Source: Cryptosporangium minutisporangium (GTDB lineage: Bacteria > Actinomycetota > Actinomycetes > Mycobacteriales > Cryptosporangiaceae). Taken from it: a stretch of 64,000 bases of DNA. A model generated the notes under the pieces. The model was given only the letters and a program-made list of their open reading frames with translations, made no database searches and had not been told where the DNA came from. Where the stretch lies: the NCBI RefSeq assembly GCF_039536245.1, contig NZ_BAAAYN010000023.1, positions 316,875 to 380,874 of the forward strand. Direction: 5' to 3'. Positions 3,939 to 50,760 of this stretch are shown here, one piece after another; the first letter of the stretch is position 1, and each line of letters starts with the position of its first letter. The position numbers and the translations under genes were made by a program.

Positions 3939-5183
3939 GTGACCGAGTTGACGGTTCTGCAGCAGCTTCTGCGGCAATCGCATCACGCACGGCCGGAAGA
4001 CCTACCGGAGATGGCGATGCGCGCCGCGCCCCTGCTGGAGGCACAGACGCTGGTCATCTACCTGGTCGACCACCGGCAGCGGCTGCTACTGCCGATGCCC
4101 GGCGAATCGACTCCTGCTCGGGAACCCATGCGGATCGACGCGACCGTAGCGGGCCGCGCCTACTCCCAGGTCAGCACGGTCACTCATGAAGCCGAGGGCG
4201 GAATCCGCGTCTGGCTACCCTTGCTGAACGGCGCCGAACGCCTCGGGGTGCTGGAAGTCTGCGCCGACCGACCACTGAGCGAGAGCGCTCTCGACGACTG
4301 CGCCGCAGCCGCCGCGATCCTGGCCGAGCTGGTCGTGTCCCGCAGCTTCTACAGCGACACCATCGAGCGGATACGGCGACGGGAACCGATGCAACTCGCC
4401 GCCGAGATGCTGCGCGCTCAGCTGCCCCCGCTGACCTACTCCACCGGCCGCCTGGTCATCAGCGGCATCCTGGAACCCTGCTACGACGTGGGCGGCGACG
4501 CGTTCGATTACGCCGTCAACGGCCACACCGCCCACCTCGCGCTGTTCGACGCACCCGGCCACGGCTCGGCCGGCGGCATGCGCGCGGTCGTGCTCGCCTC
4601 CATCACTCTGGCCGCCTACCGCAACGCCCGCCGCGCCGACCACGACCTGATCGCCACCTACCACCACCTCGACGACGCGATCCGCGCTCATGACCCCGCC
4701 GGAATGATCACCGGAGTACTCGCCCAGATCGATCTGCGGACCGGCATCCTCCGGGTGATCTCCGCCGGACACCCCAACGGCATCGTGCTGCGCCGCGGCA
4801 AGGTGGTGAAGGTACTTCCCAGCCCGACCGCGCTCCCGGTCAGCCTCGGCGACCACCGCCCACCGGTGGTGGTCGAGGAAGCCCTCGAGCCCGGCGACCG
4901 GGTGCTCCTCTATACCGACGGCGTCACCGAAGCGCGCTCCCCCGACGGCGAATCCTTCGGCATCGATCGACTCATCGACTACGCCGTCAAAGCCGAAGCC
5001 GACCGGCTCCCCGCACCAGAGACCACCCGGCGACTGGTGCACGCCATCCTCGACTTCCAGAACGACGATCTCCGAGACGACGCCACCGTCCTGCTCGCCG
5101 AGTGGACCAGTCCCGCACCGCCGGACTCCCACGCCGACCTCCAGTCCGCACCGCCGCACCAGCCGATGAACGTCAACGACTGA
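3939..5183 (+). CDS. GAF-like / SpoIIE-type PP2C serine phosphatase
   Basis: 414 residues. The first 150 residues resemble a GAF-type sensor domain (LVIYLVDHRQ, LPLLNGAERLGVLEV). The rest is a PPM/SpoIIE-type phosphatase with CYDVGGDAFDY, FDAPGHGSAGG, SAGHPNGIVL, YTDGVTEARSPDG and RDDATVLLAEW, which supply the metal-binding Asp residues. Such proteins dephosphorylate anti-anti-sigma factors in partner-switching stress pathways. No RsbW/RsbV-like partner is present in the window. The start is GTG at 3939, with an AGGAG motif about ten bases upstream. It diverges from the GGDEF-EAL gene across 236 bases in which I see no clear operator. The fourth residue of the last metal motif varies little from the family, so activity is expected. 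Confidence 0.9.
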   Translation: MTELTVLQQLLRQSHHARPEDLPEMAMRAAPLLEAQTLVIYLVDHRQRLLLPMPGESTPAREPMRIDATVAGRAYSQVSTVTHEAEGGIRVWLPLLNGAERLGVLEVCADRPLSESALDDCAAAAAILAELVVSRSFYSDTIERIRRREPMQLAAEMLRAQLPPLTYSTGRLVISGILEPCYDVGGDAFDYAVNGHTAHLALFDAPGHGSAGGMRAVVLASITLAAYRNARRADHDLIATYHHLDDAIRAHDPAGMITGVLAQIDLRTGILRVISAGHPNGIVLRRGKVVKVLPSPTALPVSLGDHRPPVVVEEALEPGDRVLLYTDGVTEARSPDGESFGIDRLIDYAVKAEADRLPAPETTRRLVHAILDFQNDDLRDDATVLLAEWTSPAPPDSHADLQSAPPHQPMNVND

Positions 5184-40123: not shown

Positions 40124-40726
40124 TCAGATCCACCCTTGTTGCCACGCGTGATGGGCGGCCGCGTGCCGGGTCGGCAACTGCAGCTTGGTCATCGCGGCCG
40201 ACAGGTAGTTGCGGACCGTGCCCGGCGCCAGGTGGACGGCGGCGGCGATCTCGTTCACCGAGGCACCGGTGCGCGCGGCCCGCAGCACCTCCAGCTCGCG
40301 GTCGGTGAGCGGGCAGTCGTCCTCGGTCAGGGCGGAGGCGGCGATGTCGGGGTCGACGTAACGTCGGCCACCGGCAACGTCCCGAATGATCTCGGCGAGC
40401 CGGGCAGCGGAGGTGGTCTTCGGCACGAACCCGCGGACACCCACGGCCAGCGCGCGCCGGAGAACGGCGGGACGCGCGTGGCGGGTCACCAGGACGATCT
40501 GCGTCGGCAACCCGGCGCGGATCTCCTCCGCCGCGCGCAGACCGTCGGTCGGCGGCATCTCCAGGTCGAGCACCGCGATGTCCGGCCGGAGCTCCCGCGC
40601 CAGCCGCACCGCGTCGGTCGAGGTGGACGCCGTGGCGACGACCTCCAGGTCCTCCTCCAGCGCGAGCAGTGCGGTCAGCGCGCTACGCAGGAGGTCCTCG
40701 TCGTCGGCGAGCAGCAGGCGGATCAT
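40124..40726 (-). CDS. NarL/LuxR-type response regulator (DesR-like)
   Basis: 200 residues. The receiver domain has the acidic pair Asp8-Asp9, phospho-acceptor Asp54 in AVLDLEMP, Thr in LVTRHA and Lys in GFVPKTT. The C-terminal LuxR helix-turn-helix reads PLTDRELEVLRAARTGASVNEIA and LAPGTVRNYLSAAMTKL. It is coupled to the histidine kinase: the kinase stop overlaps its ATG by four bases. Such pairs usually control an adjacent transporter or membrane-lipid gene. The candidate targets here are the membrane proteins at 42026-42962, with palindromes before them. Confidence 0.94.
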   Translation of the reverse strand: MIRLLLADDEDLLRSALTALLALEEDLEVVATASTSTDAVRLARELRPDIAVLDLEMPPTDGLRAAEEIRAGLPTQIVLVTRHARPAVLRRALAVGVRGFVPKTTSAARLAEIIRDVAGGRRYVDPDIAASALTEDDCPLTDRELEVLRAARTGASVNEIAAAVHLAPGTVRNYLSAAMTKLQLPTRHAAAHHAWQQGWI

Positions 40727-41868
40727 CGGCTACTCCCGGGTATCGAGGCGCTCACCGTGAACCGATCATCGGTGCGGGTCCATTCGAGCACCCCACCGCC
40801 GGCTTCCAGCCGCTCGGCGAGTGCCCGCAGACCGGTGCCCTCGGTGTCGGGGCCCGGCCCGGCGCCGTCGTTGCTCACCCGGAGACAGGCGGTCCCGGAC
40901 GACACCCGGTACTCGATCGACGCCTCCCGTGCGGTGCTGTGGCGCAGCACGTTCGTGGCTGCCTCCCGCATCACCAGCCCGAGCAGGTGCCGGGCGGCCT
41001 CCGGGATCGTGGCCGGCTCCAGCGTCGTCCGGGCGTCGATGCCGGCCGATGCCAGCACCCGGGTCGCGTTCGTGATCTCGTCGTCCAGGCTCGTGCGCCG
41101 GTAGCCCCGCACCACTGCGCGGGTATCACGCAGCGCGTCGGCCGCCAGCTGCCGGACCTCCCCCATCTCGGCGACGGCCCGCTGCGGGTCGGTCTCGACC
41201 AGCCGGGCCGCCAGCTCGCTCTTCAACGCGATCACCTGGAGATGATGACCCTGGATGTCGTGCAACTCGGCGGCGAACCGCAGCCGTTCGTCCTTGACCG
41301 CCAGCTCCGCCGATATCCGTCGGGCCTCCTCCAGCCGTCCGGCGATGTCCCAGGCCCAGAGCGGGCCCAGGACCGCCCAGCTGACGAACGCGGTCATGCC
41401 GGGCGGGAACAGCGTCGCGTAGAGCAGCCGGCCGTCGTCGGCGAGCAGGCTGACGACACCGCCCGGCACCGCGGCCAGGACCGTTGCTCCCAGGATCAGC
41501 CGGCGCCGGGCGCGGGGCTCCAGGTAGGTCGCGACCACCGCGACCATCACCGCCGGGCCGACCGCCCAGAGCCCGTAGTTCCGCAGCGGCAGCGCGCAGG
41601 CCGCGAGCACCGCCCCGGCGAGTGCCCCGGCGACCGGCCAACCCGCGGGCAACCGGATCCGCTCGCCGGCCCGCAGCCGCAGCGTGAGCAGCACCAGCAC
41701 GGCCGCCACCTCGACGACCAGCGCTCCGGCGCTGAACAGCCGCGCCGGCGCCGGGACGTCCCCGTCGAGCACCCACTCACCGGTGAACAGGATCAACACG
41801 ATCGCGTTGCTGCCCGGCACCACCCACCAGGTGTACCGGCGGAAGCCGTCCAGACCGGTCTCGTTCAC
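40723..41868 (-). CDS. DesK-like sensor histidine kinase (HisKA_3)
   Basis: 381 residues from GTG 41868. The first 165 residues carry about six membrane helices and little periplasmic sequence, as in intramembrane-sensing kinases. A coiled linker leads to the phospho-acceptor His203 in FAAELHDIQGHHLQ. The ATPase domain has NVLRHSTA (N box), SNDGAGPGPDTEGTGLRAL (G boxes). It phosphorylates the response regulator encoded next. It diverges from two small membrane-protein genes across 157 bases that contain likely operators. Confidence 0.93.
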   Translation of the reverse strand: MNETGLDGFRRYTWWVVPGSNAIVLILFTGEWVLDGDVPAPARLFSAGALVVEVAAVLVLLTLRLRAGERIRLPAGWPVAGALAGAVLAACALPLRNYGLWAVGPAVMVAVVATYLEPRARRRLILGATVLAAVPGGVVSLLADDGRLLYATLFPPGMTAFVSWAVLGPLWAWDIAGRLEEARRISAELAVKDERLRFAAELHDIQGHHLQVIALKSELAARLVETDPQRAVAEMGEVRQLAADALRDTRAVVRGYRRTSLDDEITNATRVLASAGIDARTTLEPATIPEAARHLLGLVMREAATNVLRHSTAREASIEYRVSSGTACLRVSNDGAGPGPDTEGTGLRALAERLEAGGGVLEWTRTDDRFTVSASIPGSSR

Positions 41869-42427: not shown

Positions 42428-42962
42428 GTTCACGACGACGCTGGCCCGTCGCTGGCCGACCCTGCTGGCCCTGCCGTGCGCCCTGCTGATCGGCGCCGAC
42501 GTGGGCCAGGACGCGATCTCCGGGATCGCGGCGACGCTACTGGTGTTGCCGCTGGACTACCTGCTCATCAACCAGCTCGGCAGGCGGGACGCGAGCTGGT
42601 GGGCGCTGGGCGGCCTCGTCGTGGTCATCTTCGTGGTCGAGCTGACCGGCGTGGTGCCGCTGTCCACCGTGCTCGTCGCGCTAGCCCTGATCCTGCTGGT
42701 CTGGGGCGCGGTCACCGGTACGCCGAACGGCCGGGCGACCTTCAACCTGCAGGCCGCCGGCATGCTCGGGTTCGGCGCGATCGCGCTGGCCGGGATGATC
42801 GTCGACCCCGACCTCGGCCGCTACCTGGTGGCGGCGGGCTGGCTGACGCACGGCGTCTGGGACGTCGTCCACCTGAAGCTCGACAGGGTGGTCTCCCGCT
42901 CCTACGCCGAGTGGTGCTTCGTCGTCGACGTCGCGGTCTGCCTGCTGCTGTTGCTGATCTGA
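42420..42962 (+). CDS. Five- to six-helix membrane protein, unknown
   Basis: 180 residues, nearly all hydrophobic: helices around 15-30, 33-52, 60-80, 80-95, 108-125 and 160-180, with a cytoplasmic stretch VHLKLDRVVSRSYAEWC. It begins eight bases inside the preceding membrane-protein gene, so the two are coupled and probably form a complex. Its 3' end overlaps the converging permease-like gene by 61 bases. I do not recognise a family; the WLTHGVWDVVHLK segment resembles small actinobacterial membrane proteins of unknown role. Confidence 0.75.
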   Translation: MAEFTTTLARRWPTLLALPCALLIGADVGQDAISGIAATLLVLPLDYLLINQLGRRDASWWALGGLVVVIFVVELTGVVPLSTVLVALALILLVWGAVTGTPNGRATFNLQAAGMLGFGAIALAGMIVDPDLGRYLVAAGWLTHGVWDVVHLKLDRVVSRSYAEWCFVVDVAVCLLLLLI

Positions 42963-44713
42963 CCCTGCCCGTCCCCCGCCGGTGCACCGGCCGGCATCGG
43001 CTGGGGCGGGAACGACGACGCGGGCGGTGGCGGCAGTGCCGGGGCACCCTGCTCTCCGATCCGCAGCGCGAGCCGATCCAGGTAGGCCAGTTGCGCTGCG
43101 AGAGCCAGAGCGAACAGCACCACGGCGATCGGGATCGGAAGTATCCAGGACAGCGCCGGGTTCGGCACGGCCTGGAAGTTCTGGAGGGTGCGCGCAGCGT
43201 GCAGGGTGGTCGCTGCCGAATCCCCATCGATGGTTGTCGCGTACTGCCAGATCAGACCCTGTGCGCCCAGCACCCAGTGGAGCACGACGGCGATCCCGAC
43301 CATCGGCAGCGCGGGAACCAGCAGGCGGACGCCGCGCGCGCCGCGGCCGTGCTGGCCCCGGAAGAACAGGGTGAACACGACCAGCGCGGGGATCGAGATC
43401 CAGCCCGGCGGGATCGAACCGAGGAACGTCCCGACGCTGTCCGCGTCGCCGGCGCGGTTGAAATGTGCCAGCACGAGCGGACCCACCCCGACGAACAGCC
43501 AGGGCGCGAACGGTAGGAGCAGCAACTCGCTCCGCCGCCCGAACGGCCGCACCGCACCGATCCCGAACCCAGCCAACGCCGCGAACAGCACCCCGACCAC
43601 CGCCGGCAACAGCGGCGGCGCCCAGGTGTGCAGCAATGCCCGCCACGGCGAGAAGTCGACCGGACTCGTGCCTGCTGTGCCGCTCGTGTGCAGCCACGGC
43701 CAAGCGCCGTACCCGAGCGCGACGAGCGCCAGCACGAGCCCGATCACGACGCCGAACCACGCCGGCCGACGGACACGGCCGTTGCCCGGCCCGTCCTCGA
43801 GCTCGATCCGGGTACGGGTCGCCAGTAACACAACGACCGCGGCGATGCCCAGCACAGCCAACACGATCAGCAACAGCGTCGACTCGGCGTACCCGGGCCC
43901 GAACCCGAACGTGCGAAATGCGCTGGAGATCATGAACGTCAGCGGTGTCTCGGCCGGGCCGACCCCGGCCGAGAGCACGAACGGCCCGGTGAACGTCTGG
44001 AGCGAGAGTGCGAGCACGCCGAGCGCCAGCACGATCCCGCCGACGACGAATGCGCCGACCCGACGTCCGACGGAGGGACCGGTCGCCGGCCTCTCCGCCA
44101 CCGTCGGCGGGTACCCGGCGGTCGCCGGCGGGACCGGCTGGGGAACCGCCGGGACGCTGGGAGTACGCAGCGCCGCCAGATAGATGGTCACCCCCACCGC
44201 GAGCGCCAGACCGGCCGTCGTCCAGGCCACCTCCGAGAGGACCCACCCTCGGGGCTGCGCCTGATCGTGGAACTCGCGGCGAGAGGTCGCCCATCCGACC
44301 GCGTACGCGACCGGCGCGTACGTCGCGAGCGGCAGCGCCAGCAGGCCCCGCACGACCCAGCGCGCCGACCGGCCGCCGAGCTGGGCTGCGACTGCGAGCA
44401 GCGGAGCTACGACCAGGCCGACGGCGAGGGGCGCCAGCGCCAGCACGATCGCGAACCCGAAGCGGCCACCCACTCCGCTCTGCCAGACGGCGTCATAGTT
44501 CTGGAAGCCGATGTACTCCTCGGCTTCGGTCAGCCGGAAGTCCTGGAAGCTGCCGAGCACCGTGGTCACGGTTGGCGCTACGTAGGACCAGAGGAGGGCG
44601 AGGACGGCTGGCGTGAGTAGGCCGAGGCCGAGCGCAACGCGTGCGCCCGGCCGTGGCGCGGGAGGCGCGAGGGGTGCGGACACGTGCAGCACCGTACCGT
44701 CCAGGACATCCAC
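42902..44713 (-). CDS. Large membrane protein resembling two fused, degenerate ABC permease halves
   Basis: 603 residues, about 14 hydrophobic segments. The N-terminus, LTPAVLALLWSYVAPTVTTV followed by SFQDFRLTEAEEYIGFQNYDAVW, looks like the start of MalF-type sugar permeases. However the EAA loop that contacts the ATPase is not recognisable, and no ATPase or binding protein lies nearby. A Pro-rich linker (about 190-225) joins two similar halves. The C-terminus is Pro/Gly-rich and then polar, and overlaps the converging gene by 61 bases. Function is uncertain; a two-domain permease relic that took on another role is one reading. A GTG at 44683 (VSAPLAPPAP) is an alternative start. Confidence 0.7.
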   Translation of the reverse strand: MDVLDGTVLHVSAPLAPPAPRPGARVALGLGLLTPAVLALLWSYVAPTVTTVLGSFQDFRLTEAEEYIGFQNYDAVWQSGVGGRFGFAIVLALAPLAVGLVVAPLLAVAAQLGGRSARWVVRGLLALPLATYAPVAYAVGWATSRREFHDQAQPRGWVLSEVAWTTAGLALAVGVTIYLAALRTPSVPAVPQPVPPATAGYPPTVAERPATGPSVGRRVGAFVVGGIVLALGVLALSLQTFTGPFVLSAGVGPAETPLTFMISSAFRTFGFGPGYAESTLLLIVLAVLGIAAVVVLLATRTRIELEDGPGNGRVRRPAWFGVVIGLVLALVALGYGAWPWLHTSGTAGTSPVDFSPWRALLHTWAPPLLPAVVGVLFAALAGFGIGAVRPFGRRSELLLLPFAPWLFVGVGPLVLAHFNRAGDADSVGTFLGSIPPGWISIPALVVFTLFFRGQHGRGARGVRLLVPALPMVGIAVVLHWVLGAQGLIWQYATTIDGDSAATTLHAARTLQNFQAVPNPALSWILPIPIAVVLFALALAAQLAYLDRLALRIGEQGAPALPPPPASSFPPQPMPAGAPAGDGQGQISNSSRQTATSTTKHHSA

Positions 44714-44780
44714 CGCTGGCGAATTAGAACGGTTCGGCCGCCCGCATCATCGGCGCGCTGCGGTGACTCGAGCGAGGAGT

Positions 44781-45782
44781 TCAGCTGCCCCCAAGTCCTT
44801 CACGCAGCAGGACGTCGGCCGGCGGGCACCGATGGTCGAGCACCCGGAAGAGCGCGGTCCACAACGGCGCGACCGTGTCCGGCCGGCAGCCGCGCGCGGT
44901 CAGCAGTGCTTCCAGCCACTCGTTGGCGTCGCGCAGAAGGGACGGGTCGTCGAGGAGCGTGGCGGCGGCCAGCGCTTGGATCACGTGATCGACCGCGAAC
45001 TCCGCCTCCACGTCGAGGTCCGGCAAGCAGGTGTCGCTGACGGTCCCGTCCCAGGCGACTCGGACGAGGCCGGGCAGCTGCCGGTCGCGCAGCAGCGCCT
45101 CGGCCCGCTCGGCAGCCCCGGGACGGGGTAGTGCCGGCACCGGTTGGTCGAGCGGGTGCGTCTCGGCCAAAACGTCAGCGGTCTCCTGCGGTGAGGCACC
45201 CCATCCGCTCGCGCCCAGGACCGTTGCTCGGGACGAGTCGACGCCCAGGGCTCTGCCGCCGACGATCGTCGGCATACCGGCGGCGGCTGCGACCTCGACG
45301 ATCCGCCGGGCACCGGGCAGCGCTGCGGGCACCGTGCAGCTCACGGCCATCACGTCCGGTCGAAGACGGCGCAGATATCCGGGCAGATAGCGTGCGGGGG
45401 TGGACGCTCCGAGGAACGTCGTACGCCATCCGAGATGTCGAAGCGATTCGGCGAGGATCCGGGCGGCCAGCGCGTGCCACTCCCGCTCGGGGCAGGCCAC
45501 GACGACGTGACCGTGTGGTTCGGTGGGGTTCGGGATCCACGCCTCGACGGCCGCCACCGCTGCATCGGCGACAGCGGTCGCCGCGTGTTCCTGCGCGACC
45601 GTGTACTGCCCCTCCTGCCAGCGTTGACCGACTGCGTCCTGGATCGGTGCGATCAGACCGGTCAGCACCTGGAGCGGATCGGTCCCGCAGGACAGCGCGT
45701 CGTGGACGACCTTGATGCCCGTCCGACGATCAGCGGCGTCGACGGCCTGCGCGTAGTTCCGTTGCGCGACGTCTGTGAGCAT
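44781..45782 (-). CDS. Stand-alone cobalamin-binding protein with the CarH-type light-sensor signature
   Basis: 333 residues from ATG 45782 (MLTDVAQRNY), preferred because GAGAGG lies about seven bases upstream; an ATG at 45815 is the alternative. The N-terminal helical B12-cap domain (about 1-85) has Trp55, nine residues, then Glu65-His66, the Wx9EH pattern that marks adenosylcobalamin photoreceptors such as CarH. The Rossmann B12 domain (about 90-215) has EWHALA around His103, where the usual motif is ExHxxG; the last Gly is Ala. A C-terminal part of about 115 residues is unassigned. No MerR-type DNA-binding domain is attached, unlike CarH/LitR. It may sense light or B12 and act on another protein. 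Confidence 0.82.
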   Translation of the reverse strand: MLTDVAQRNYAQAVDAADRRTGIKVVHDALSCGTDPLQVLTGLIAPIQDAVGQRWQEGQYTVAQEHAATAVADAAVAAVEAWIPNPTEPHGHVVVACPEREWHALAARILAESLRHLGWRTTFLGASTPARYLPGYLRRLRPDVMAVSCTVPAALPGARRIVEVAAAAGMPTIVGGRALGVDSSRATVLGASGWGASPQETADVLAETHPLDQPVPALPRPGAAERAEALLRDRQLPGLVRVAWDGTVSDTCLPDLDVEAEFAVDHVIQALAAATLLDDPSLLRDANEWLEALLTARGCRPDTVAPLWTALFRVLDHRCPPADVLLREGLGGS

Positions 45783-45834
45783 GGTGAGGCCTCTCGGGAC
45801 TCCGAAGGCCGTCATCGGCCTGCACCCTTGGCAT

Positions 45835-45890
45835 CGGATACACCTTTATTCCGTAATGATAGATTTGAGAATAGACGTCGTGCTGCGGTG
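45835..45890 (-). promoter_or_regulatory. AT-rich promoter-like stretch upstream of the B12-sensor gene
   Basis: In an otherwise very GC-rich region this stretch has TATTCTCAAATCTATCATTA (coding strand of the B12 gene), well placed before the gene at 45782. It probably contains its promoter. No CarH-type palindrome could be confirmed. Confidence 0.4.
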
Positions 45891-45926
45891 GAGCGGCACT
45901 AGGCCCCTGCGCGGCGTACGAGCCGA

Positions 45927-46343
45927 TCACGAGGGATCGCTGGTCCTCGCCGGCCGCCTGCTGCTGCGCTCGGACGCCTGGCCCGACCCGTGCTGGCGCC
46001 CGGGCTCAGCGGGGCTGCTCGCGCTCAGCGCGTCGAGGAGGCTGATGGATTCCTTCGCCGACGCGGTGGTCCGCAACGCCCAGTAGGCGACCCACTGACG
46101 CCACATGCCGAAACCGCCGGCACCGATCAGCAATGGGCCGGCCACCACGCCCTGGCCCGACAGGACCAACACTCCGTAGCCGGCCATGCCGGCGAAGAAG
46201 CACATGTTGCCGCCGAGGAACGGAAAGGCCGCGTGGACCCACGGGTTCACCGCGTGCAGCAGGCAGGCACCGACGAAGAACACGAGGGGAGCAGCGAGGA
46301 GCGGATATCCCCAGCCGACGAACTTGACCGCCTGGAGCGCCAC
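45927..46343 (-). CDS. Small membrane protein with three to four helices, unknown
   Basis: 138 residues. Hydrophobic segments at about 10-30, 40-62 and 63-85 (GYPLLAAPLVFFVGACLLHA, GNMCFFAGMAGYGVLVLSG, VVAGPLLIGAGGFGMW), then a hydrophilic Ser/Arg-rich tail. I recognise no family. It lies upstream of the B12-sensor gene on the same strand with about 145 bases between, so co-regulation is possible but not shown. The regular helix pattern argues for a real gene. Confidence 0.55.
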   Translation of the reverse strand: MALQAVKFVGWGYPLLAAPLVFFVGACLLHAVNPWVHAAFPFLGGNMCFFAGMAGYGVLVLSGQGVVAGPLLIGAGGFGMWRQWVAYWALRTTASAKESISLLDALSASSPAEPGRQHGSGQASERSSRRPARTSDPS

Positions 46344-46744
46344 TGCGCCACCGAGGGGATCAGGACCATCGTCGCGGAATGCTCCAGAGCAACGGCTTGC
46401 GGGAGTGGAAGTTCACCCGCCCGAGAGTGCCGGTCGCCTGTTGTCCGGCCACTGTGGACGTCATGATTCCGACACCGCCCGCGCCTCCTCGGAGAGGCGC
46501 GCCGTCGGTCTTTCTTCGCCGAGTCCCGCAGTCCCGGCCCCGTGGGACACGTCGAACCTAGCCGCCGTCGCAGGGCGGCCCGCGATGTCGAATGGCCGAT
46601 GAACGACCGCCCTGTGTCCTGTGGAGCGAACACGAGTTGGATGGATGCTTGTCGTCGAGGCATGCCTCGCCCGAGTTGAGCGGCTGCCGCTCGGCCAGCT
46701 GAGGACCGCTTCTTTCACGGATGACCGAGCTGAGGGGGTTACGA
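46344..46744. other. Gene-free interval of about 400 bases
   Basis: No credible coding frame, RNA gene or strong hairpin was seen. The frames that are open here are rich in Arg and Ser and look like noise. Its right end must contain the promoter and the AGGGGG ribosome site of the secreted-protein gene at 46745. Confidence 0.5.
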
Positions 46745-47098
46745 ATGCGCATTCGGGCGACGACGAACGCTTGGCCGGAGCGGGTGATGATCGCCGCCGT
46801 TCCGCTATTACTCACGATGGTCGGGGTGACCTCTACGGCGCACGCAGCGAGCGGTTCAATGGCCGCGGCCGCTAGTGAAAGCGGGTATTTAGCGTGCCCC
46901 GCCGGGCAGGTCGTCTGGATCACCGAACGCACCGGGCCGGGGGTCACCACTGTGCGCTTGGACGGCGTCATCGGCCGCCAGTCCAAAACAGTGTGGTCGA
47001 CGACGACGATGAGGACGGGTATGCAAGCGACGTTTTGGTCGGTCTCGACCACCGGCGAGCTGGACCGCTTCACCACCGGCACCCACTGCGGACCCTAG
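46745..47098 (+). CDS. Small secreted protein, unknown
   Basis: 117 residues from ATG 46745, with AGGGGG about six bases upstream. A signal peptide is clear: RIRATTNAWPERVM, then a hydrophobic core IAAVPLLLTMVGVTST and AHA-A cleavage around residue 34. The mature part (about 80 residues) has two Cys (YLACPAGQ and GTHCGP) likely joined by a disulfide, and Thr/Ser-rich strands. No family recognised. It stands alone between the gene-free interval and the converging regulator gene. Confidence 0.65.
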   Translation: MRIRATTNAWPERVMIAAVPLLLTMVGVTSTAHAASGSMAAAASESGYLACPAGQVVWITERTGPGVTTVRLDGVIGRQSKTVWSTTTMRTGMQATFWSVSTTGELDRFTTGTHCGP

Positions 47099-47135: not shown

Positions 47136-47795
47136 TTATGTGGGATGAATACCGCCCTCTGGATTAGTCGACGCGATCCCGCCCGCCATGGTCGAGGCTT
47201 CATCAATGATGGTCGGTCCCATTCCCGCGACATGGTAGGGGTCAACGGCCTGCATCATTGCGAATAGCCGGCGTCCTTCTCGGCGGTGGCGGTCGGCCAG
47301 TTCGGTATCCGTGTTGACCAGCGCCTTCCCCAAGCCGACGTGCGCCACGGCCTCCTCGTACCTGGCCTCGACGCGCTGGGCGATTGCTAGTGCCTGTCGA
47401 TGGCAGGTGGCGGCGGATGCAGGCTGTCCGGCTCGCAGAAGCGTGCCGCCGAGCCGATTGTGGGCATAGCAGCGACTCTGCGGGCTGCCGGCGCGGTCCG
47501 TTCGTTCGACCGCCTCCTCATGCAGACGGCGGGCCTCACAGACGTATCCGGCGCGGAGGCGGACGATGCCGAGCTCCGCGAGAGCCTCGGCAACCCCGAT
47601 CTGGTTGCCGTATGCCTCGAAGTTGGTGATCGCCCGGCGGAACAGCAGCGGGGCGACGACGCGGTGGTCGAGCCGTGCGTGCGCCCGACCTAACTCGAAC
47701 AGGACGAGGGACCACCGATGGCTATCACCGCCGGGGTTCCCGAGATGACGGGTCGCCTGCCGCAGGTAGCCCAGGGCGGAAGATCTCCCGGGCGG
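47136..47795 (-). pseudogene. Out-of-frame C-terminal TPR part of the AfsR-like regulator
   Basis: From about 47795 leftward the TPR-like sequence of the AfsR-like regulator continues in a different frame: ALGYLRQATRHLGNPGG, VVAPLLFRRAITNFEAYGNQ, AEALAELGIVRLRAGYVCEA, RLHEEAVERTDRAG and AATCHRQALAIAQRVEARYE, ending at the stop at 47136. These are regular tetratricopeptide helices of the kind that precede the break, so this is the original C-terminus (about 215 residues) cut off by a frameshift rather than a separate gene. It has no start or ribosome site of its own. Confidence 0.75.
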
Positions 47796-50760
47796 CCAGG
47801 CCGGAGGCGCGCGCCTCCACCGGATTTCCCGCCAGTAGCCAGGCCGACGCCAGGCCCGCGAGTGCCTTCGCCTCGGCCTGCAGGTTGCTGGCCGTCCGAT
47901 GCAGGGTGACCGCCTCGGTGAAGCGCGCCACCGCCCGGCGCGGTGCCCCGCAGCGGAGCGCCAACCGGCCCAGCCCGTACAACGCCATCGCCTGTCCGAA
48001 CTCGGACCGGCTGGTGGTGCTGAGCGCGAGGCCGCGCTCCAGCACCTGCTGCGCCCGGACGTCGTCGGTGTCGACGTAGACGCCGCCCAGGTGCGCACAG
48101 AGGAACGCGAGCTGCACCGGGTCACCGGTGTCTTCCGAGATCGCGACCGCCTCCGCCAGCGCGGCCTCCGCCCGTACCAGGTCGCCTTGATCGCGGTGGG
48201 CCAGGCCGATCAGCCCGAGCAGGACGCTCTCGTCGCGGGAGCTGCCGAGCTCCCTGGCGACCGCGAGCGCCCGGTCGGCGGCGGCGATGGCATCTGCCTG
48301 GCGTCCCTGCTGACGTCGGAGAATGCCCCGCAGCTGCCAGACGTGGACCTCGCCGAGGCGGTAGCCGACCCGGCTGGCCACCTCCAGACTCGCGTCGAGG
48401 CAGGACTCGACCCGGTCGGCCGCTCCGAGGAGACGGTGGACGGTGGCGGCCAGGTAGAGCGCGTCAGCCTCGCCCGGCGCGTGCTGAGCCGCGCGGAACA
48501 ACTCCAGCGCCCGCTCCGCGTGGGCCAGCTTCTCGGTGATGTCCGATCCCGGCTTCGTCGTGTAGAGATCGGCGAGGTTGCGGTTCATCACCGCCTCCCC
48601 CAGCGTGTCTCCTGCGACCTGGCACGCGCGGAGGGCCAGGCGGTGGACCCGGCTGCCGTCGTCGGTGAAATCGCGGAGTTCGTAGCAGGAGTGCGCAGCC
48701 GCAGCCAGCGTCCAGGCCAGGTCGGCGCGGCCGATTTCGACGCTCTGCGCGACCAGCTCCCCGATCGACTCGCGCTCGGCCTCGAACCAGGCGAACGGCG
48801 CCCGCGCGACGCCTGCCAGGACCGACTCGGGCAGCGGGGCAGCCGGCGTCACCTCGGGTATGGCCGCCAGCGTGCGGGCAGGCAGCCGGGCGTTCGCCTG
48901 ATCGGCGAGCGTGAGCCATCCCCCGACGGCGCGCTCCAGCACCGTGGGCGGCGCGAGGTCAGGGTCGGTCGCGGCCTGTTCTCGGGCGAAGGGCCGAACC
49001 AGGGCGTGGAACCGGTAGCGGGGCCGACCGCTGCTGTCCGGGCCCGCCACGTCGAGCAGCCGCTGCTCGACCAGGACGTCGACCGCCTCGTCGGCGGCGC
49101 TCTCGTCCAGACCGGTGACGACGGCGGCCAGCCAGCCGGGGAACGCGGCGAGGTCGAGCACGGCCAGCATCCGTAGGACCCGGCGCTGCCGGCTGCTCAG
49201 CAACGCGTATCCGGCTCCGATGCTGGCGCGGACGTCGAGATCGTGCAGACGCAGCTCGTCCAGCCGCCGGTGCTCGTCGGCCAGCCGCTCGACGAACCAC
49301 TCCAGCGACGTCTCCGGCGCGCTGGCGATCCGGGCCGCCATGATGCGCACGGCGAGCGGAAGACGGCCGCAGAGGGCGAGCAGCCGTTGAGCGGCGTCGA
49401 TCTGATCGTGAACACGCTCCGTCCCGACGATCCGCTCGAAGAGGGCCAGCGCCTCCTCCTGCGTGAACACGTCGAGTTCGACGAAGTGCGCGCCTTCCAG
49501 CGCGGACAGACGGATCCGGCTGGTCACGAGCACCGCGCAGCCGACCCCGCCGGGAAGCAACGCGCGGATCCGGCGCTCGTCGGTCGCGTTCTCCAGCACG
49601 ATGAGGAGGCGACGGTCGGCCACGATGCTGCGCAGGAGCGCGGCCCGCTCGTCGGTCCGGTCCGGTACGGCGGAGCCCGGCACGCCGACGGCCCGCAGAA
49701 ACATGCCAAGCACGTCAGCTGGCTCAACCGACCGGCTCGTCTCCCTGGTCAGGTCGACGTAGAGCTGACCGTCCGGATACCACGCACGCAGGCCGTGCGT
49801 GAGCGTGACCGCCAGCGCGCTCTTGCCGACTCCGGCGCGTCCGGAGATCGCCACCACGCGGAGCGCCCGCGCCTCGGCCTCGGTGAGAACCTTCAGGCAG
49901 TGGGCCAGCTCGGTGTCGCGCCCGGTGAAGTCGGAGATCCCGGCAGGCGCCTGGGACGGCCCGGTCCAGCCGGTGCCCCGGACGTCGGGCAGCGCATCGC
50001 GGGTGCGCGGGGCCGGCGCGTCCTCGGCCGCCAGGATCATCCGGTGGGCCGCGCGCAGCTCCGGGCCGGGGTCGATGCCGCGCTGCTCGACCAGGCGCTT
50101 GTGAATGGCCAGATAGACGTCGAGCGCCTCCGCCTGCCGACCGTCGGCGTGCAGGGCGCGCATCCACTGGGCCAGCAGTCGCTCGCGGGTCGGGTGCTCA
50201 GCGACCAGGCGACACAGTTCGCCGAGCACCTCGGTGTGGCGGGAACAGCCGAGTTCCGCCTCGATCCGTGCCTCGACCGCGACGAGACGACGCTCCTCCA
50301 CCCCGTCGACGAACGCCGTGAGCGTTCGCGTCCGGGGCACGTCGGCACAGGCCGGTCCCCGGTGGAGAGCGAGCGCGTCGGACAGCAGCAACGCGGCACC
50401 CTCCGGGTCGCCGCGTCGCAGGGCCGTCTCGCCGTCACTGCACAACGCGTCGAACAGGTCGACGTCGACCGCGTCGGGAGGTAGGTCGAGCCGATAGCCA
50501 CCACCATGGCCGACGATGACCCGTGCACCGTCGGCGCCGAACGCCCGGCGCAGCGCGGACACGTATCCACGGACCAGAGTGCCCGCGGACGGCGGCGGCC
50601 GACCGTCCCACACCTCGTCCGCCAGTCGGCCGACCGAGACGTGCTCGCGGCGGTGCCGGACGAGAACGGCGAGCAGCGCACGAGCGCGTCCACCTCGAAT
50701 CGGACGCCACTGGTCGCCGTTGCGGACTTCCAGCGTGCCCAGACAACGGCATCGCAGCAT
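47725..50760 (-). CDS. AfsR/SARP-type transcriptional regulator, C-terminus frameshifted
   Basis: 1011 residues in this frame. The N-terminal OmpR-like winged helix (about 1-95) is followed by a bacterial transcriptional activation domain (about 96-245), together the SARP region. An NB-ARC ATPase follows with Walker A GRAGVGKS (Lys313), LLIVLENATDE (Walker B) and VLVTSRIRLSALEG. TPR repeats run from about 640 to the end. At about residue 988 (near 47795) a one-base shift takes the frame off the TPR pattern; it ends 20-odd residues later, while the TPR pattern goes on in the next frame to 47136. The DNA-binding and ATPase parts are intact. SARP regulators activate antibiotic pathways; the NRPS operon is 13 kb away, so a link is only possible. 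ATG 50760 lies 12 bases after the methyltransferase stop. Confidence 0.87.
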   Translation of the reverse strand: MLRCRCLGTLEVRNGDQWRPIRGGRARALLAVLVRHRREHVSVGRLADEVWDGRPPPSAGTLVRGYVSALRRAFGADGARVIVGHGGGYRLDLPPDAVDVDLFDALCSDGETALRRGDPEGAALLLSDALALHRGPACADVPRTRTLTAFVDGVEERRLVAVEARIEAELGCSRHTEVLGELCRLVAEHPTRERLLAQWMRALHADGRQAEALDVYLAIHKRLVEQRGIDPGPELRAAHRMILAAEDAPAPRTRDALPDVRGTGWTGPSQAPAGISDFTGRDTELAHCLKVLTEAEARALRVVAISGRAGVGKSALAVTLTHGLRAWYPDGQLYVDLTRETSRSVEPADVLGMFLRAVGVPGSAVPDRTDERAALLRSIVADRRLLIVLENATDERRIRALLPGGVGCAVLVTSRIRLSALEGAHFVELDVFTQEEALALFERIVGTERVHDQIDAAQRLLALCGRLPLAVRIMAARIASAPETSLEWFVERLADEHRRLDELRLHDLDVRASIGAGYALLSSRQRRVLRMLAVLDLAAFPGWLAAVVTGLDESAADEAVDVLVEQRLLDVAGPDSSGRPRYRFHALVRPFAREQAATDPDLAPPTVLERAVGGWLTLADQANARLPARTLAAIPEVTPAAPLPESVLAGVARAPFAWFEAERESIGELVAQSVEIGRADLAWTLAAAAHSCYELRDFTDDGSRVHRLALRACQVAGDTLGEAVMNRNLADLYTTKPGSDITEKLAHAERALELFRAAQHAPGEADALYLAATVHRLLGAADRVESCLDASLEVASRVGYRLGEVHVWQLRGILRRQQGRQADAIAAADRALAVARELGSSRDESVLLGLIGLAHRDQGDLVRAEAALAEAVAISEDTGDPVQLAFLCAHLGGVYVDTDDVRAQQVLERGLALSTTSRSEFGQAMALYGLGRLALRCGAPRRAVARFTEAVTLHRTASNLQAEAKALAGLASAWLLAGNPVEARASGLAAREIFRPGLPAAGDPSSREPRR

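Follow-up and report, generated by a model that had tools for sequence, protein, structure and literature searches.

We find that the gene at positions 44781 to 45782 (minus strand) of the window, the 64-kb stretch of DNA analysed here, encodes a member of the stand-alone photocobilin family by its sequence, predicted fold, and motifs. Photocobilins combine an adenosylcobalamin (AdoCbl) domain with a five-helix globin that holds biliverdin beside the corrin, and they exist as stand-alone and enzyme-fused forms; the stand-alone SasPcob, for example, acts in trans to alter the behaviour of a diguanylate cyclase (Zhang et al. 2024, PMC10979010). The window protein is a photocobilin with three deviations (no SpoIIE gene adjoins it, its bilin pocket is changed, and Arg replaces the Gly by the axial His), and it is not a new kind of system. 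Our overall reading, to which we give a probability of about 0.8, is that this stand-alone photocobilin would work by AdoCbl photolysis, with output by contact in trans and mainly as a green-light sensor. From homology and conserved residues, the protein would be expected to bind AdoCbl, to respond to light by photolysis, and to open as a dimer, and we infer in addition a partner, an output, and a loss of biliverdin. The first-pass annotation had seen here a CarH-like module that senses light through B12 and lacks a DNA-binding domain, and had proposed that it may act by contacts with other proteins. Both ideas hold in outline, the second being the one already published for stand-alone photocobilins, while the identity of the tail as a photocobilin globin had been missed.

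The frame, placed earlier at exactly these coordinates, is intact over 333 residues from ATG 45782 to the stop TGA at 44783-44781 (ORF list and translation, with phmmer). A longer frame starts at ATG 45815 and would give 344 residues; we prefer the start at 45782 because GAGAGG lies seven bases before it and because of the N-termini of relatives, judged by eye. The AT-rich region noticed upstream was confirmed. At 45821..45880 (read on the minus strand, as are all parts of the gene below), a stretch of 60 bases has 43% GC, compared with 71% over the window as a whole, and among 12,788 sampled 60-mer positions, this one included, just two fall so low. We regard it as a putative promoter region, for which light control had been suggested earlier, since the gene stands alone and would need a promoter of its own. 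A sigma-70 promoter was considered and dropped, as no promoter-like site of this type turned up when 42700-46800 was scanned.

The protein begins with the four-helix bundle of the B12 module (residues 1-82, 45537..45782; Pfam B12-binding_2 at residues 8-79, E 1.2e-14; model helices 4-15, 19-31, 36-56, and 62-82), followed by a Rossmann-type B12-binding domain at about residues 91-208 (45159..45512; predicted model and Pfam B12-binding at residues 91-198, E 7.1e-16), both Pfam matches being over cut-off. Pfam found no MerR domain in the protein, in agreement with the earlier view that this head is missing, and nothing over cut-off past residue 198. Both photocobilin B12 motifs are present, as had been recognized for the Wx9EH signature and the B12 His: W55-x9-E65-H66 at 45585..45620, whose SasPcob counterparts W61, E71, and H72 are residues of the adenosyl pocket and dimer interface, and the E/DxH motif E101-W-H103 at 45474..45482, where H103 aligns with His108, the lower axial cobalt ligand of SasPcob (PMC10979010). 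The C-terminal extension is likewise real and covers residues 217-333 (117 residues here, 115 in the earlier estimate). It holds a globin-like domain of the photoglobin or bilin-binding type at about residues 222-333 (44784..45119), assigned by phmmer and VIA.

The match to photocobilins runs through nearly the whole protein. The top three phmmer matches in the PDB are photocobilin structures (8j2x, E 5e-49; 8j2w, E 5.1e-49; 8j2y, E 1.7e-44), aligned over query residues 14-317 for 8j2w and 8j2x and 16-303 for 8j2y, and the fourth, 8jbs, ends at query residue 161; with an E of 5e-49, the photocobilin match is not due to chance. The structure prediction that had been proposed for the C-terminal part gives a globin-type domain and a photocobilin fold end to end. 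In this AlphaFold model (m2b0626cfc85c, with 33 relatives as alignment), pLDDT is 92.6 and pTM 0.90, and the tail forms helices at 223-232, 236-248, 256-277, 281-296, 301-315, and 320-330. Photocobilin chains fill the first five Foldseek rows for the model (TM 0.80-0.86 by query), and VIA-align returns Z 34.9 (8j2y), 33.5 (8j2w), and 33.1 (8j2x) over residues 1-332, with the next at 21.1; the allophycocyanin 9i1r_I aligns with residues 185-332 at Z 12.5.

Among known systems, SasPcob of Saccharothrix syringae (PDB 8J2W dark, 8J2X light) shares with the window protein the two domains, the length class, and the lack of an output domain, at 35-38% identity and fold Z 33.1-33.5, and the B12-site W/E/H and Trp296 are common to both. 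However, the Asp270, His137, and Gly105 of SasPcob are Ala263, Tyr132, and Arg100 here, and the window copy has no adjoining SpoIIE gene. AbDPcob (AbPcob), an Acidimicrobiaceae photocobilin-diguanylate cyclase (PDB 8J2Y), has the same sensor module (Z 34.9) and likewise no Asp at this place (it has His), yet it carries a fused diguanylate cyclase where the window protein stops after the globin. CarH and LitR likewise have a B12 module in which Wx9EH and the axial His are found (domain Z about 18-20), but CarH, unlike the window protein, carries a MerR head for DNA binding and lacks a globin. AerR of Rhodobacter capsulatus (PDB 7TE2; Z 19.0 over residues 2-210) has a B12 module without a DNA-binding domain and exerts its output by antirepressor contact; its 205-residue chain has no globin, whereas the window protein has 117 further residues predicted as globin-type. 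Since this tail is a photocobilin globin by phmmer and VIA, we rejected the reading of a CarH- or AerR-like protein whose tail would be of unknown kind.

Photocobilins were found in 77 of 298 sampled genomes of the order (match threshold E <= 1e-30). Of 95 matches, 92 were taken, leaving out two partial ones and the weakest, and with two PDB chains these make up a 94-row alignment. G58, E71, H72, H108, and W296 (SasPcob numbers) occur in all 94 rows, the window protein among them, while W61 occurs in 93, again with the window included, and E106 in 93, AbPcob having D. A scan of genome contigs with a single protein confirmed no relative, and one with alignment A1 confirmed 499 stretches, the best 80 of which were kept as named loci L101-L180; conservation of W/E/H in these loci is partly by construction, as the scan and filter used those motifs. 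Together with these best 80 of 499, there are 170 loci with 160 distinct core sequences (10 are duplicates between the two collections), and the SpoIIE count below, over 172 loci, contains the 10 duplicates as well. In a quick tree with long branches flagged, the window protein falls in a 17-row clade (SH-aLRT 99), on an end branch of 0.81. In its own genome, of 9.23 Mb on 152 contigs, eight B12-binding matches pass the cut-off and two weaker ones fall under it. Three of the eight are photocobilins. The other five, in the parts scanned, are two methylmalonyl-CoA mutases, a MeaB-containing protein, a methionine synthase, and a radical SAM protein, and no MerR fusion was seen in these parts.

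In the mechanism that we propose, the helical bundle and the Rossmann domain would enclose AdoCbl in the dark, H103 binding the cobalt and W55, E65, and H66 surrounding the adenosyl group, and a head-to-tail dimer would be held. Green light would break the Co-C bond, upon which the adenosyl group would depart, the E65/H66 helix would shift, and the dimer would open. Through contact, the changed surface may then make a partner protein more or less active. The genome encodes a cobalamin adenosyltransferase (E 5.1e-59). One mark against a simple transfer of the light response comes from the axial-His site. The signature used as a SignatureFinder search filter for light-responsive B12 domains consists of GxxW, EH, GxxH, and GxxxP (PMC11796333), and the window protein carries three of these motifs, GxxW (G52-W55), EH, and GxxxP (G125-P129). 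GxxH, the form of the axial-His motif in SasPcob and AbPcob, is absent and reads R100-E-W-H103, with Arg100 (45485-45483) in place of SasPcob Gly105. This Gly is present in the nearest protein whose light sensitivity has been demonstrated, and Arg replaces it in all 17 rows of the clade.

It is on this substitution, and on the resemblance of the B12 module to methyltransferase corrinoid proteins as well, that one could build the view of a B12 sensor or corrinoid carrier that makes no use of light. We consider this highly improbable, given that the W/EH and E/DxH motifs of light-dependent B12 domains (PMC10979010) are present, that the match to a demonstrated photoreceptor is whole-length, and that NCBIfam corrinoid models score far under their cut-offs; the NCBIfam CarH model gives 47.8 bits against a cut-off of 400. 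Across the family, with the best 80 of 499 named loci included, the GxxH Gly is found in 106 of 172 rows, and its distribution follows that of Asp270: 86 of 89 Asp270 rows have Gly vs. 20 of the 83 others, 60 of which have Arg. This pairing of Gly with Asp and Arg with no Asp would mark two branches of the family, and shared ancestry explains it without a functional link.

The bilin pocket is the second site of change. In SasPcob, Asp270 anchors biliverdin and contacts rings A-C, His137 pairs with the ring C propionate, and Trp296 touches ring D and the corrin (PMC10979010). In the presence of AdoCbl, SasPcob has a biliverdin dissociation constant of about 0.7 uM. The Trp between bilin and corrin is kept in the window protein as Trp289 (codon 44916..44918), and L294 and R297 are kept as well, but Asp270 aligns with Ala263 (codon 44994..44996), Tyr132 replaces His137, and C252, C299, and D302 also differ. 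Asp stands at column 270 in 63 of the 94 order rows and, with the best 80 of 499 named loci added, in 86 of 160 distinct sequences. No row of the 17-row clade has it, yet nine have an Asp one residue earlier, where the column may be out of register, which weakens any clean claim of an Asp-less clade. Neither Asp is found in the six-row subclade of the window genus (the window protein and L010-L014). The Asp is no condition of family membership, as the founding member AbDPcob has His there, and some biliverdin binding and a red-light response remain in that protein (PMC10979010). In a separate three-row subclade (L019, L021, and L029), a Cys occupies column 270, the place of the biliverdin-anchoring Asp.

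Photoglobins have a CXQD motif, and related globins linked to B12 proteins have a Cys-containing RGMC motif (2023 PNAS, PMC10151467). A Cys three residues before column 270 is found in none of the 172 rows (best 80 of 499 named loci included), so a covalent site of the CXQD type is unsupported. In the same set, Cys299 occurs in five rows, the window protein and L010-L013, all of one genus; this position contacts biliverdin in docking models of AbPcob (PMC10979010).

The supply of biliverdin is less informative. The genome has no match to PF01126 (heme oxygenase) and none to the PHY domain, and one genome of the same genus has a weak PF01126 match (G001). Of 76 genomes with retrieved photocobilin copies, 60 have an Asp copy and 16 do not; a clear PF01126 match, as sorted by hand, occurs in 21 of the former and 3 of the latter (Fisher p 0.36), or in 26 and 5 when weak matches, also over the curated cut-off, are counted. 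A heme oxygenase that tracks the Asp type is thus unsupported, and because 39 of the 60 Asp-type genomes likewise have no clear match, the absence of PF01126 says little. With no such link in the heme oxygenase distribution, the case against biliverdin comes mainly from the pocket residues, and we regard its binding by the window protein as doubtful.

On the other hand, a full two-chromophore photocobilin that binds its bilin through Trp289, Arg297, and their neighbours and senses green and red light like SasPcob would fit the retention of W289, L294, and R297, and AbPcob, which lacks the Asp too, still incorporates biliverdin (about 20%) and reacts to red light (PMC10979010). Ala263 at the ring A-C contact and Tyr132 for His137 speak against it, as does the own genome's lack of PF01126 or PHY matches, for what this is worth given the Asp-type genomes just mentioned, and we judge it unlikely, if still worth serious thought. 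With Ala in place of the biliverdin-anchoring Asp, we favour a photocobilin that kept its globin but whose hold on biliverdin is probably weak or absent, which would make it mainly a green-light sensor.

The third deviation concerns the genomic context. A SpoIIE-type phosphatase gene lies just upstream of 166 of 172 photocobilin loci (best 80 of 499 named loci included): 31 of 32 in L009-L040, 55 of 60 in L041-L100, and, for L101-L180 (the best 80 of 499), 78 of 78 plus 2 of 2, the last two being L119 and L121, which fell outside the motif filter (EWH present, the required Leu absent) and were checked separately. Among 78 measured pairs of this best-80-of-499 set, 57 overlap and 69 lie within 10 bases, the largest distance being 164, where stop-to-start distances depend on start codons assigned by script. 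The link is not new in kind, since STAS, SpoIIE, and PP2C-like proteins have been named as predicted partners of SasPcob (Zhang et al., PMC10979010). This was the only paper found on a photocobilin or B12-binding domain together with SpoIIE; Schneider et al. 2022 (photoglobin) may report such context. In most relatives, the partner would probably be the SpoIIE-type PP2C phosphatase encoded just upstream.

In the window, no SpoIIE gene was found beside the photocobilin within 6.2 kb upstream or 5.8 kb downstream. This copy is one of six loci without such a neighbour: that it is alone in this is true of the first 32 loci, and five more among the next 60 (L081, L087, L098, L099, and L100) show none within 425-538 bases on their upstream side. 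Very long branches of the quick tree lead to L081, L099, and L100. The two paralogues in the genome each have a SpoIIE neighbour, and two of the 22 SpoIIE matches of this genome directly adjoin them. One of these actinobacterial SpoIIE-photocobilin pairs is L013 (contig C17), which belongs to the same clade, is 61% identical to the window copy, and has its start at the stop codon of a gene for a GAF-SpoIIE phosphatase (Pfam SpoIIE, E 5.1e-36); the window copy has no such junction. A SpoIIE phosphatase domain at 4521-5105 (plus strand), about 40 kb from the photocobilin, is weakly similar to the photocobilin-linked one.

This context raises the question of whether the window copy is decaying: a SpoIIE-linked photocobilin could have been duplicated, and the duplicate, having lost its partner, could now be drifting. 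It is the sole one of three photocobilins in the genome without an adjoining SpoIIE gene, and its end branch is long. Nevertheless, the intact frame, the retention of W55, E65, H66, E101, and H103, the high-confidence predicted fold, the ribosome-site-like GAGAGG, and the AT-rich leader make decay rather improbable. The absence of a SpoIIE neighbour and the leader of its own suggest instead that the window copy, which may have lost such a neighbour or never had one, most likely acts in trans, either on one of the SpoIIE phosphatases of the genome or on another target.

A 603-aa gene, ABC-permease-like by eye (44713-42905, minus strand), starts 67 bases past the photocobilin stop and has no Pfam or NCBIfam match; stretches with 44-48% identity occur at G000:C78, G000:C47, and G002:C14 and C20, three of them with an internal stop. 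Of five family genomes, three, its own included, have matches, and none of these is a full-length orthologue by position. Upstream, a 138-aa membrane-protein-like ORF (46343-45930, minus strand), also without Pfam or NCBIfam match, finds matches only in its own genome among the five. From the match pattern of these two genes, the neighbourhood looks species-specific. Further away on the minus strand are a 1011-aa SARP/AfsR-type regulator (47725-50760; Trans_reg_C, BTAD, NB-ARC, and TPR) and, by domain scan, a two-component pair of a HisKA_3 kinase and a LuxR-type response regulator (40124-41868).

Taking the pocket and the context together with the changed axial-His site (Arg for Gly throughout the clade), one may speculate that the clade is a separate biliverdin-free branch of photocobilins in which the globin serves as a relay and has ceased to be a red-light antenna, the window copy being SpoIIE-free, green-only, and acting in trans; we would put only a small stake on this. 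A bolder version would have Cys299 hold a different bilin covalently. With regard to the biology of the family, this single genome holds an altered-pocket photocobilin without SpoIIE next to two SpoIIE-linked paralogues, and offers a natural comparison of the roles of biliverdin and of the phosphatase. The close pairing in 166 of 172 loci, the best 80 of 499 included, makes the control target of stand-alone photocobilins directly testable.
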